Assembly: GCF_024345185.1 (NCBI RefSeq)
Contig: NZ_BROB01000009.1
Span: 36,590-100,589 of the forward strand
Origin: Levilactobacillus humaensis
GTDB lineage: Bacteria > Bacillota > Bacilli > Lactobacillales > Lactobacillaceae
DNA: 64,000 bases
Direction: 5' to 3'
This document shows positions 11,961-30,874 of the stretch, one piece after another (the stretch's first letter is position 1; each line of letters opens with the position of its first letter). The position numbers and the translations under genes were made by a program. The notes beneath the pieces are model-generated. The model saw nothing but the letters and a program-made list of their open reading frames with translations, made no database searches and was not told where the DNA came from.

Positions 11961-12094
11961 TTTCACCTCGTTTAAATTAAATGAGAATATGAGAATTCGA
12001 TTACAGCTTAAATATATAATACCAGAAATTTTGTGCCAAGGGGAGGTCGAAACACTCAAATTGCAAGATGACTTTTCGAACAAGATGAGGTAGA

Positions 12095-12200
12095 GAGTGT
12101 GATAAAAGGCGGTTGATGCTCATTGACTGCCTTCTGTCACACGTTTCGACTGTAGATGTTCGGAGCGCAAGAAAGGCCTGAGACAAAAAGGCTCAGGCCC
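12095..12200 (-). repeat. Modular hairpin repeat, copy 3 (short form)
   Basis: Read on the minus strand it begins just after the brnQ stop with a terminator hairpin (GGCCTGAG/CTCAGGCC). Then come TTCTTGCG and GTCGAAACGTG, and an imperfect palindrome GTGTGACAGAAGGC...GCCTTTTATCACAC. The order and sequence match the copies at 24582 and 30548, but the inner hairpin is missing. Confidence 0.75.
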
Positions 12201-12210
12201 TACCTCGTCA

Positions 12211-13548
12211 TTAATTTGTGGTCAATCGACTAGCAATCCAGCCAATCAGCGTCCCGGTCAACGCGGGAACTACCCACCCGAAGCCCTGACTGGCTAAGGG
12301 TAAGTATGTGTTAAGTATTAATAACGGGCGACACCAGGCCATATTTTGAATGGCTGTTGGCAGCGCGGTGAGCCCAGCGAAAATGGCTGGAATAAGGGTA
12401 AAGAGCATCGCAGTTCCGAAGAGCCAACGAGAGGTCCCCATCAGAGGGGACAAGACGGCCAACAGGATTAGCACGATGGCTAGGGGATATAGAAAGAGCA
12501 GTACCGGTGTGGAGGCCGCAATCAGCTTAGTCAGGCCGATGTTGGCAAATAGGCAAGGCAATACACTGGCAATGCCAATTAAAACGGCATAAGGGATACG
12601 CGGAAATAAGGCATGACCTGCATCGCCAAAGGCTGAGATGAGGCCAATGGCGGTCTTTAGGCAGGCGATAATTACAATCAGTGCCAATAGGCCAGTTCCC
12701 CAGGTACCAAAATAGTAATTGGCAATCTGAGCCAGGGTAATGCCCCCGTTGGCTGCAAGTGAGAAGTGACCCAAACTCATGGTTCCCATGAGGGCTAACA
12801 GTGTGTAGATGACTCCCATCAGGGCAATGCTGATGGTTCCGGCCTTAATCACGTCTTTGGCGATCTGGCCGGGTTCGGTAACCCCCAGGTCGCGAATACT
12901 ATCGATGACGACGATCCCAAAGGCCAGTGAGGCCAAGGCATCCATGGTGTTATACCCCTCCATAAATCCACTTAAAATAGGTGCGTGAACGTAGCTGCCA
13001 CGGACTGGAACGCTCGACAAGCCACCCAGGGGTTTCAAAAAGGCCGCTAACATCAGTGCGCCTAAGAGAATGAGAAATAGCGGTGTGAGCCATTTTCCCA
13101 CGTAAGTCATGAGTTTACCTGGTCGGCGGGCTAACCACCAAGCGAGGCCAAAGAAGGCGACTGAGAAGAGTCCCAGGGCGAGCGACTGGTGGTGCGGGGC
13201 GATAAAGGGCACGAGACCGATTTGAAAGGACGTTGTTGCCAGACGGGGGAGGGCAAAGAACGGGCCCACGGTTAGGTATAGCAGAATGGTAAAGAGGTAG
13301 GCGAAGGGACGATTGACTTTGGTTGCGAGGTCAAAGACGCCCTCACTATGGGTGATCCCAATCCCGGTGACCCCTAGAAGGGGAATCCCGATTCCAGCGA
13401 GTAACAAGCCAATGGCCGCCCAGCCGACATTGGATCCAGCCTGTTGTCCCAAGAAGATGGGAAAGATCAGATTGCCGGCGCCAAAGAATAGGCCGAAGAG
13501 CATCATGCCAATGAAGAGCAGCTCTCGTCGGTTTAATTGTGTTTTCAA
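12211..13548 (-). CDS. brnQ: Branched-chain amino acid transporter, LIVCS family
   Basis: The 445-residue protein has about 12 membrane helices and the LIVCS opening MMLFGLFFGAGNLIFPIFLG, followed by GFGWVVPALTGT at the end. It imports leucine, isoleucine and valine with a cation. The best start is TTG at 13548 (LKTQLNRREL); the ribosome site is poor (AAGAAAG, distant), so the start is uncertain by a few codons. It is transcribed alone on the minus strand, and repeat copy 3 supplies its terminator. No T-box or other amino-acid leader was seen in the short upstream region (13549-13606). Confidence 0.92.
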   Translation of the reverse strand: MKTQLNRRELLFIGMMLFGLFFGAGNLIFPIFLGQQAGSNVGWAAIGLLLAGIGIPLLGVTGIGITHSEGVFDLATKVNRPFAYLFTILLYLTVGPFFALPRLATTSFQIGLVPFIAPHHQSLALGLFSVAFFGLAWWLARRPGKLMTYVGKWLTPLFLILLGALMLAAFLKPLGGLSSVPVRGSYVHAPILSGFMEGYNTMDALASLAFGIVVIDSIRDLGVTEPGQIAKDVIKAGTISIALMGVIYTLLALMGTMSLGHFSLAANGGITLAQIANYYFGTWGTGLLALIVIIACLKTAIGLISAFGDAGHALFPRIPYAVLIGIASVLPCLFANIGLTKLIAASTPVLLFLYPLAIVLILLAVLSPLMGTSRWLFGTAMLFTLIPAIFAGLTALPTAIQNMAWCRPLLILNTYLPLASQGFGWVVPALTGTLIGWIASRLTTN

Positions 13549-23989: not shown

Positions 23990-24574
23990 ATGAAAGTCTT
24001 AAAGGAAGTTGCCAGTTGGCTCATTCCCATCATTATTGGGTTAGCCATTGCCGGAGCACTGAAAGCATTTGTCTTTACCCGTGTTAGAGTGGATGGGCCT
24101 TCCATGGAGCCTAACCTGAACAACAACGAAAAAGTCTTTGCTTTGAAGCAATCTAAGGTCAAACATCTGAGTGTCATCGTTTTCGATGCCCACGGTGAAG
24201 ATCCTTCGGCCAAGGTTAAGACCAACTATGTGAAGCGGGTCATTGGTTTACCTGGTGACAAGGTTAGCAGCAAAAACGGGTATATTTACGTTAATAACAA
24301 GAAGATTAAACAGTCTTTCATCAGCGATAGTGAACGGACTGCCGGTACTGGGAACTGGACGCTGGCTAGCCTGCAGAAGACCTATCACTGGGGCAGTGGG
24401 ACCACGGTTGTGCCTAAGGGCCGATACTTTGTCTTAGGGGATCACCGGAGTGTTTCCAACGATTCTCGTTACTGGGGCTTTGTCAAGAAAGATAAGGTCT
24501 TGGGCGTGGTCAAGGTGCCAGTCTGGGCCTCTAGCAAGACGAAACGGGCCAATGTGAATTCACTGGCTTACTAA
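23990..24574 (+). CDS. lepB: Signal peptidase I
   Basis: The 194-residue enzyme removes signal peptides on the outer face of the membrane. One membrane helix (about 9-28) is followed by the catalytic Ser38 in DGPSMEP and Lys82 in YVKRVIGLPGD. The box GDHRSVSNDSRYWG completes the active site, all canonical for the SipS-type serine-lysine dyad. It starts at ATG 23990. It is transcribed alone, ends at a strong hairpin (copy 1 of the repeat), and acts on the many secreted and surface proteins encoded nearby. Confidence 0.95.
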   Translation: MKVLKEVASWLIPIIIGLAIAGALKAFVFTRVRVDGPSMEPNLNNNEKVFALKQSKVKHLSVIVFDAHGEDPSAKVKTNYVKRVIGLPGDKVSSKNGYIYVNNKKIKQSFISDSERTAGTGNWTLASLQKTYHWGSGTTVVPKGRYFVLGDHRSVSNDSRYWGFVKKDKVLGVVKVPVWASSKTKRANVNSLAY

Positions 24575-24581
24575 TAAAATT

Positions 24582-24755
24582 AGAGGGTCTGGGATGAATC
24601 CCAGACCCTCTTGTGTTTTCAAATTATATGGTCGAAACGTGGGACAAAAGGCAGCTGGTTCCGCTTAAACCTGATAACCAAACAATCCAAGCCCAGGATT
24701 ATTCGGTTATCAGCCTTAATGCTCACCAGCTAACCGCCTTTTTTCCCACTCTTTT
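24582..24755 (+). repeat. Modular hairpin repeat, copy 1
   Basis: It begins 8 bases after lepB with a terminator hairpin (AGAGGGTCTGGGA/TCCCAGACCCTCT). CTTGTG, an AT-rich spacer and GTCGAAACGTG follow. A long hairpin then has outer arms GTGGGACAAAAGGCAG...CCGCCTTTTTTCCCAC, a second pairing AGCTGGT/ACCAGCT, and an inner stem GATAACC/GGTTATC around AATCC...GGATT. Arms differ from copy 2 by paired changes, which argues for selected structure. A 65-codon frame inside it is not a gene. Confidence 0.75.
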
Positions 24756-29698: not shown

Positions 29699-30535
29699 AT
29701 GAGTAAGCGACATTACCACAGGGGGCGCCGCCGCGGGCGGACCTCAATTGTGGCGGCAATTCTGCTGATTGTGATTGGCGGCATCGGAGGGCTGAGCTCA
29801 CAAGGGAACCCGACAGCTAAGAAGCTCACCCAGACGGCGAGCAATGCGGTCACTCAGATTACAGGAGAGTCGAGCAGTCAGTCTAGCCAAAATGGCGGGA
29901 CACAGGCACCGAAACAGTCGGTGGCGACTAAGAAACTCGCCGAGTTGAAGTATACGGGAACCCAGATTGTGGCGGTTAATCATAATAATCCAACCTTCAC
30001 GAAGGCTGACCTGTCCCTTAAGCAAGGGTCCTGGGCGAAATATGGGGCCCTAGACACCGCTAATCGGGTGACGACGGCCAATGCCATGCTAAGCAAGTCA
30101 ACGATGCCTACGGCCAAGCGAGAACCCTTGTACGTCAACCCAACCGGATGGCGAAATAAGCCCTATACGGTTAATGGTAAGCGGGGTTATTTGTATAATC
30201 GGAGTCACCTGATTGGGTACCAATTGACTGGTCAGAATAACAACCTGAAGAATCTGATGACTGGGACGCGTTCTTTGAATGACCCGGGGATGACGGCCTA
30301 CGAGAATCCAGTGGCGAGTTATCTGAAGGCCAACCCGACCAACCACATTCGTTACCAGGTTCAACCTGTCTTTCGGGGGAACGAATTGGTAGCTCGCGGC
30401 GTGCACATGCAGGCCGAGTCCGTTGAGGGCAAGGGCATTTCTTATAATGTCTACATCTTTAACATTCAAGCTGGCATCAAGATTAACTATGATAATGGGA
30501 GTAGCCAACTTGGCGATCCCGCGGCAGCCTTTTAG
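29699..30535 (+). CDS. Secreted or membrane-anchored DNA/RNA non-specific endonuclease
   Basis: The 278-residue protein has a basic N-terminus (RHYHRGRRRGRTS) and one membrane helix (about 18-35, uncleaved anchor or signal). A Ser/Gln-rich linker follows. The nuclease domain carries NRSHLIGYQLTGQNNNLKNLMTGTRSLN, with catalytic His in the DRGH/NRSH-type motif and metal-binding Asn. The fold is the beta-beta-alpha metal type shared with streptococcal DNases and EndA. It likely degrades extracellular DNA for nutrients or competition. ATG at 29699 follows GAGAGGGGAA. Copy 2 of the modular repeat follows it. Confidence 0.9.
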   Translation: MSKRHYHRGRRRGRTSIVAAILLIVIGGIGGLSSQGNPTAKKLTQTASNAVTQITGESSSQSSQNGGTQAPKQSVATKKLAELKYTGTQIVAVNHNNPTFTKADLSLKQGSWAKYGALDTANRVTTANAMLSKSTMPTAKREPLYVNPTGWRNKPYTVNGKRGYLYNRSHLIGYQLTGQNNNLKNLMTGTRSLNDPGMTAYENPVASYLKANPTNHIRYQVQPVFRGNELVARGVHMQAESVEGKGISYNVYIFNIQAGIKINYDNGSSQLGDPAAAF

Positions 30536-30547
30536 CCTAAGAACTTA

Positions 30548-30721
30548 AGAAGGGTCTGGGGAAAATCCCAGACCCTTCTTGCGTCTCTAAATTTACGCGG
30601 TTGAAACGTGCGCCAAAAGGCAGTCAACTCCGCTTAACCCCGATAGACAAACAATCCAAGACCAGGATTATTTGTCTATCGACGTTAATGCTCATTGACT
30701 AACCGCCTTTTGTCGCACTCT
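30548..30721 (+). repeat. Modular hairpin repeat, copy 2
   Basis: It opens with a terminator hairpin (AGAAGGGTCTGGG/CCCAGACCCTTCT). CTTGCGTCTC and GTTGAAACGTG follow. A long hairpin then has arms GTGCGCCAAAAGGC...CCTTTTGTCGCAC, a second pairing AGTCAA/TTGACT and an inner stem GATAGACAAA/TTTGTCTATC around AATCC...GGATT. It fills the gap between the nuclease stop codon and the stop codon of the convergent gene at 30722. Confidence 0.75.
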
Positions 30722-30874
30722 TTAGTGGCGATTCATATAACGGTAAATGAGATAGAGAACCACTCCGGCCAGTAGGATCAGGCCAACAGTGGGATTGTCG
30801 CGGAAGATCCAACGGATGGCACGGAAAGTTCCGGTGCCGTGTAGGCCGCCGAGTAGGGCAAAGAGTCTGGGCAT
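30722..30874 (-). CDS. Small membrane protein, 50 residues
   Basis: The frame reads MPRLFALLGG, LHGTGTFRAI, RWIFRDNPTV, then GLILLAGVVLYLIYRYMNRH. A hydrophobic helix at the end is followed by a basic tail. AGGAGGTC lies nine bases before the ATG (30874-30872), a strong ribosome site, so I count it as a real gene. The stop TAA abuts repeat copy 2. It is divergent from cls. Function unknown. Confidence 0.6.
   Translation of the reverse strand: MPRLFALLGGLHGTGTFRAIRWIFRDNPTVGLILLAGVVLYLIYRYMNRH

Follow-up and report, generated by a model that had tools for sequence, protein, structure and literature searches.

The repeat that lies behind three genes of the window, the 64,000-nt stretch of Levilactobacillus humaensis DNA analysed here, is best explained as a transposase-less MITE which replaces terminators, carries a terminator-like hairpin of its own and is likely moved by a transposase of the IS1182 family. 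We assign this reading a probability of about 0.73. The repeat is real, abundant and most likely mobile; the transposase and the movement of the unit are argued by analogy with known elements. The first-pass annotation had suggested a mobile or stability module attached to 3′ ends, and mobility is supported by dispersed copies, by empty sites in relatives, by one orthologous copy that is inverted, and by ends that resemble those of IS1182 elements.

All three copies could be read directly in the window sequence, in the order that had been claimed for their parts. A covariance model trained on 43 near full-length copies from the same genome matched the window at exactly these three places, plus opposite-strand shadows of two of them. 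At each place the repeat unit is longer than its core (units at 12094-12199, 24586-24752 and 30553-30721). The features are as follows.

12087..12093, no strand given: probable right remnant of an old terminator stem (CTACCTC on the minus strand), from flank comparison
12094..12150, minus strand: core of the brnQ copy, a truncated palindrome containing 13 nt of the right arm in inverted form, from model match and fold
12094..12199, minus strand: unit of the brnQ copy (left-end hairpin, linker and shortened palindrome), ends from flank comparison with the relative G020
12165..12199, minus strand: left-end hairpin of the brnQ copy, terminator-like (GGCCTGAG...CTCAGGCC), from sequence and fold
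12200..12206, no strand given: probable left-hand remainder of the former terminator stem (minus strand GAGGTAG), counterpart to 12087-12093, from comparison with G020
12211..13548, minus strand: brnQ-like branched-chain amino acid transporter gene (PF05525)
23990..24574, plus strand: lepB-like signal peptidase gene (PF10502)
24582..24611, plus strand: left-end hairpin of the lepB copy, terminator-like, its base extending 4 nt into the flank, from sequence and fold
24586..24752, plus strand: unit of the lepB copy, left end set 3 nt before CTGGGA, right end CACTCT
24631..24752, plus strand: 122-nt palindromic core of the lepB copy, from model match and fold
24739..24752, minus strand: right terminal repeat of the lepB copy (minus strand AGAGTGGGAAAAAA), IS1182-like by family-wide matrix score
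29582..30535, plus strand: DNA/RNA non-specific endonuclease gene (PF13930)
30546..30581, plus strand: left-end hairpin of the nuclease copy, terminator-like, its base extending into the flank (fold -27.7 kcal/mol, z -5.8)
30553..30721, plus strand: unit of the nuclease copy, from sequence and model match
30600..30721, plus strand: 122-nt palindromic core of the nuclease copy (fold -51.0 kcal/mol on the top strand, -64.4 on the bottom strand)

The arms pair as the first-pass annotation had proposed, and folding beats that of shuffled sequences with z values of -10.6 and -9.9 for the two full cores and -3.6 for the truncated one. The copy behind brnQ had been described as one that lost its inner hairpin. 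Its core is indeed truncated, but simple loss does not account for it, because an inverted copy of the right arm is present: AGTCAATGAGCAT in this copy is a perfect reverse complement of ATGCTCATTGACT, the right arm of the nuclease copy. A search of the window returned no Rfam match at gathering score, and all hits obtained when 30520-30740 was searched to E 10 stayed below gathering. Likewise, blastn of window positions 30545-30725 against plasmids and phages gave no match.

The unit measures about 170 bp in total, too short for a transposase gene, and consists of a terminator-like hairpin, a linker of about 20 nt and an imperfect palindrome of 122 nt. When 175 copies were aligned on GTCGAAACG, the hairpin stood in register with the core, with an A-rich stretch at about -56 to -47 followed by a G-rich stretch, a loop, a C-rich stretch and a T-rich stretch at about -23 to -19. 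In the same alignment the linker from -15 to -1 is partly conserved, the core ends in CACTCT, and sequence outside about -70 to +130 is near-random. Folding of the segment upstream of the core gave -12 kcal/mol or below in 126 of 160 copies, compared with 47 of 160 control segments. The core itself comprises five helices and keeps a nearly constant length of 122 nt, with conserved stretches over many species; GAAACGTG, TCCGCTTAA, TTAATGCTC and the C-C/G-G that closes the apical hairpin hardly vary, and both the internal and the apical loops hold stretches that are conserved across species. The counts given here and below exclude copies close to the end of a contig or locus, copies that lack a CACTCT-like end, and duplicates recognized by an identical flank, with filters that vary by test. 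Orthologous copies from different species were retained and are not independent.

In the genome that contains the window (2.37 Mb, 67 contigs) the model scan gave 116 rows, which by hand count resolve into 45 opposite-strand shadows and at least 71 distinct places, 59 of them near full length and 12 shorter. Since the scan scored the best 150 of 691 candidates, 71 is a lower bound. The motif GTYGAAACGTG has 48 exact matches in this genome, at least two of which are non-elements, against 0 for the pattern read backwards; thus the repeat is not a product of chance. By model, the element occurs in 34 of 35 Levilactobacillus genomes (none in G004, and a single weak match in G024) and in 137 of 301 sampled Lactobacillaceae genomes, which cover 22 of 40 genera. 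A class-wide sample yielded 3 of 398 genomes, namely the own genome and two with weak matches, both from one genus of another family. Among the matches listed in a pattern scan of named genomes were many Levilactobacillus species, including L. brevis CD0817, as well as some Lactiplantibacillus and a few unplaced Lactobacillus records. The earlier proposal had been made to depend on further copies in the genome and its relatives, and these were found in large number. Adjacent tandem copies of the element were seen at L143:7669-8000 and L169:1693-1939. A different short repeat (about 45-70 bp, GCCACGGCCGGCTCCATCCCTGGCCTCCTCCGGCT) lies in the upstream flank of L006 and is present at about two dozen places each in the relatives G020 and G015.

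The position of the unit relative to genes, determined with ORFs called by a simple script, is confined almost entirely to 3′ ends. Usable flanks were available for 103 copies, of which 45 have convergent neighbours, 34 and 23 lie in tandem pairs of either sense, and 1 is divergent; the 43 usable copies of the own genome divide into 19 convergent, 15 and 9 tandem, and none divergent. Altogether, 79 of the 103 copies sit behind a bottom-strand gene. The stop codon of this right-hand minus-strand gene has a median distance of 5 nt from the CACTCT end and falls within -10 to 12 nt in 56 of 79 cases. Where the left-hand gene of a tandem pair is on the plus strand, its stop codon is found 54-82 nt before GTCG, i.e., just before the hairpin, in 15 of 23 cases, and a looser set of 102 left-hand plus-strand genes gave a median stop-to-GTCG distance of 79. 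The two orientations in tandem pairs (34 vs 23, p 0.18; 55 vs 31 in the looser set) do not reveal a significant preference.

Comparison with the nearest relatives, G020 (96% at lepB) and G015 and G012 (91%), shows what stands at these sites when the unit is missing. At 11 of 23 compared sites, partly judged by eye, at least one of the three has only an unrelated plain hairpin: L001, L003, L007, L009, L012, L013, L014, L020, L024, L027 (lepB) and L049 (brnQ). In this classing, pairs of more than 130 nt were labelled 'other' and the brnQ site was added by eye. L035 is ambiguous and stands outside the eleven, as the hairpin of G012 shares AAAAAAGTCT with the hairpin of the unit and resembles the same end repeat. 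At the lepB site, G015 and G012 have an unrelated hairpin, and the unit in G020 is of the other arm type, with a different left hairpin; at the nuclease site, the unrelated hairpin is in G012, and G015 retains a decayed remnant. In the empty/filled pairs inspected by eye no target-site duplication was seen, and another hairpin stands in place of the unit. At one site, L007, the unit is inverted in G020 (L305) between the same flanks. At four sites (L009, L023, L024 and L071, two of them also among the eleven) one relative keeps, as judged by eye, a left hairpin but no core, so the two parts need not be gained or lost as one. G012 possesses few intact copies, shows decayed remnants at L019, L029, L033 and L062, and misses several orthologous copies, a pattern that looks as if a maintaining factor had been lost.

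The brnQ site allows the position of the unit within the former hairpin to be traced. Both G020 and G015 have plain hairpins here, and the intact hairpin of G020 has the stem base GGTAG/CTACC. Since this stem base matches the flanks of the brnQ unit in the window, GAGGTAG and CTACCTC, the unit appears to lie inside the old stem. Such stem remnants flank the brnQ unit on either side, and a minority of the other units show them too. With free boundaries, a flank test detected no signal in the own genome (observed mean reached by 31 of 60 shuffles) and a weak one in other genomes (by 2 of 60). A second test with exact boundaries, devised after the free-boundary result, set the ends 3 nt before CTGGGA and after CACTCT and covered the 59 of 158 copies that had the motif. 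In this test, at least 4 complementary flank bases were present in 9 of 59 units compared with 2.8 expected, at least 6 in 5 of 59 compared with 0.59 expected, and 2 of 500 shuffles reached the mean.

The ends of the unit resemble the terminal inverted repeats of IS1182-family transposons. In Levilactobacillus, these transposons end in AGTCTGGGACA.., GGCTGGGACAAAAGTCC or AGGCTGTGACATAA., and the unit has a left end close to AGTCTGGGACAAAA in a minority of copies and a right end close to AGAGTGTGACAAAA in most. We scored the units with a matrix made from 14 ends, i.e., those of 7 IS1182 copies for which both repeats were found among 27 loci tried, taken from Levilactobacillus and from further genera of its family. 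The left end reached at least 10 bits in 39 of 139 units (most often, in 17, at -48) and in 0 control windows, the remaining 100 of 139 units scoring below 10 bits. The fixed right end scored at least 0 in 103 of 139 units, compared with 1 of 139 in the control. These matches are not independent, because the units share descent. The left end of a unit in G071, AGGCTGTGACATTAGTCACAGCCT, is very close to the IS type AGGCTGTGACATAA.

The IS1182 copies themselves have flanks that are complementary over at least 8 bases in 4 of 7 loci, by eye and allowing small offsets. In G007, an IS1182 copy occupies the place where the left hairpin of a truncated unit would be, leaving about 22 nt, made up of a T-rich stretch and the linker, up to the core start. 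A search for core motifs in the seven IS1182 loci did not find the core; it returned short words of chance length, plus a unit beside the L342 remnant. This unit (G027, L342:1808-1933) is inverted and lies directly behind the 3′ end of the IS1182 remnant, and the IS1182 copy L335 has a terminator-like hairpin at the position where the L342 remnant has the unit. In its own 67-contig draft, the genome of the window contains no IS1182 transposase above noise (best E 6.8e-6 for NF033551, over 82 profile positions) and no match to PF13751. The G015 draft holds nine short IS1182 C-terminal stretches, several of them at contig ends, which suggests that IS1182 is present there in many copies.

Across the 301 Lactobacillaceae genomes, 65 have both the unit and any IS1182 match, 72 the unit only, 48 the IS only and 116 neither, a modest association with an odds ratio of 2.2 (p 0.0013) that is uncorrected for kinship and includes many weak matches. 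When the comparison is restricted to the 52 genomes with a strong IS1182 match, 32 of these have the unit and 20 the IS only, while 105 genomes have the unit only and 144 neither; the odds ratio is again 2.2 (p 0.014, kinship uncorrected). No IS1182 match was found in 5 of 22 unit-bearing genera.

Because it leaves the same footprint as IS1272, the unit can be regarded as a transposase-less element of the IS1272 kind. An inverted-repeat-replacing transposase, as in IS1272, would place the unit within the stem of a terminator already present and thereby remove the top of that stem, and the hairpin of the unit would then restore termination. Restored termination would in turn render insertion tolerable directly behind stop codons.

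The paired changes between copies, which the first-pass annotation took to imply selection for structure, require a separate look. The covariation as such holds with more copies and is strong: 205 cells are changed on both sides, compared with 58.8 (sd 6.7) in shuffles, and 96.2% of the core cells are paired, compared with 84.5% in shuffles. The step from there to selection is less secure. In the 115 ungapped 122-nt copies used for the mismatch count, 4370 cells comprise 4147 Watson-Crick pairs, 89 A.C, 38 G.U and 96 others, and wobble pairs are therefore rare. Between the own genome and G020, eight orthologous sites with flanks 93% identical showed 32 both-sided changes that still pair, 21 one-sided changes and 2 of another kind, the changes at two of these sites (L003 and L013) being mostly one-sided; two sites compared with G015 showed 11 both-sided changes, 1 one-sided and 1 otherwise. 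The excess of both-sided changes and the inverted arm in the brnQ copy point to concerted change at the DNA level. After insertion, the arms of the palindrome may change together by template switching across the hairpin or by conversion between copies, and much of the covariation might arise in this manner, with the conserved loops being maintained by a binding partner or by conversion. As both processes can produce paired changes without selection, selection for structure is only one reading of them.

That reading leads to the strongest alternative, which we consider possible but doubtful. It holds that the unit is a structured 3′ UTR RNA selected for the stability or regulation of mRNA 3′ ends, that this function spread or kept the copies, and that mobility is secondary. 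The functional strand would be the bottom one, on which the order is stop codon, structured core, linker and terminator, and the gene that precedes most copies is indeed encoded on this strand. Covariation far above shuffles and loop stretches conserved between species would both be expected of such an RNA, as opposed to the rarity of wobble pairs and the use of both orientations in tandem pairs. On the top strand, A.C mismatches exceed G.U (89 vs 38 in the 115 copies; 31 vs 12 in 38 dissimilar copies, p 0.005), an excess that corresponds to G.U when the bottom strand is read, and it is this strand that has the more stable fold in 38 of 38 dissimilar copies. A bottom-strand RNA would give this pattern, and a strand-biased mutation pattern might do so as well. 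The lack of an Rfam match also speaks against an RNA of this type, which moreover leaves the IS1182-like ends and the replaced hairpins unexplained.

A broader proposal joins both ideas and is, in our estimate, unlikely. According to it, a terminator-hunting mobile element found throughout the Lactobacillaceae excises the hairpin of the host and installs its own terminator together with the covarying 122-nt core, to be transcribed as a bottom-strand 3′ UTR RNA (stop codon, core, linker, terminator). A trans-acting partner would keep the core, and G012 and G004 would have lost the partner and, as a consequence, the element. If this were true, a bacterium would rewire the 3′ ends of dozens of its genes by transposition.

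It is very improbable that the repeats are ordinary intrinsic terminators whose sequence is shared by descent or by an uptake-type bias, with a neutral palindrome adjoining. The terminator-like energy of the left hairpin and the four sites at which relatives keep a hairpin without core would suit this explanation. It does not, however, account for a core of nearly constant 122 nt with stretches conserved over many species, for close relatives that are devoid of whole units, or for ends resembling those of an IS family. Least probable of all are REP/RAYT- or IS200/IS605-type palindromes that move as single strands. They share with the unit a long imperfect palindrome and an intergenic location. 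Against them stand the removal of the target hairpin, unit ends that form an inverted repeat pair, and the lack of strand bias when base 1 of the closed L. brevis chromosome is taken as the origin (19 of 35 copies point with the fork).

If the preferred reading of a terminator-replacing MITE is true, the unit defines a transposon niche in which the element itself repairs the damage done to its target, the lost terminator, and for this reason insertions immediately after stop codons can number in the dozens. The copies would then constitute a natural series of terminator replacements, suited to tests of 3′ end effects on expression, and the unit would be a substrate for work on inverted-repeat-replacing transposition. 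For RNA discovery, the results call for caution, as strong covariation can arise from palindromes changing in concert, besides selection on an RNA. While inverted-repeat-replacing transposition is already known, inverted-repeat-replacing, terminator-carrying MITEs with a conserved structured core would be new.

Among known systems, group IIC introns likewise use intrinsic terminators as homing sites. Their insertion point is beside the hairpin, and they contain a ribozyme; at about 170 bp, the unit is too short to be such an intron. No description of this repeat family was found in the titles and abstract beginnings of the open-licence literature searched. A 2024 MITE review makes no mention of IS1182 or Lactobacill* (PMC10969869), and in the relevant passage of a 2008 survey of stem-loop families L. 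johnsonii is the only lactobacillus named (PMC2267715). SPRITE, RUP and BOX of Streptococcus pneumoniae are alike in being small interspersed MITE-like repeats (PMC3049150). SPRITE resembles a Rho-independent terminator and is enriched at the 3′ ends of convergent genes; it is a simple hairpin with AAAA/TTTT ends, for which no empty site was found (PMC3049150). The unit is set apart from SPRITE by its IS1182-like ends, by empty sites with another hairpin and by its covarying core.

The closest likeness is to IS1272, a member of the IS1182 family, and to TnSha1. IS1272 inserts into hairpin stems, several of which are confirmed terminators, deletes part of the hairpin, generates no target duplication and uses both orientations (PMC4923244, PMC5678879). 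The unit shares with IS1272 and TnSha1 the hairpin-stem target, the partial loss of the hairpin, the lack of a duplication and the use of both orientations (PMC4923244, PMC5678879), and its ends resemble the terminal repeats of the Levilactobacillus IS1182 elements. It differs from them in that it has no transposase, measures about 170 bp and brings its own terminator-like hairpin, and in that it carries a conserved 122-nt structured core and reaches tens of copies per genome.
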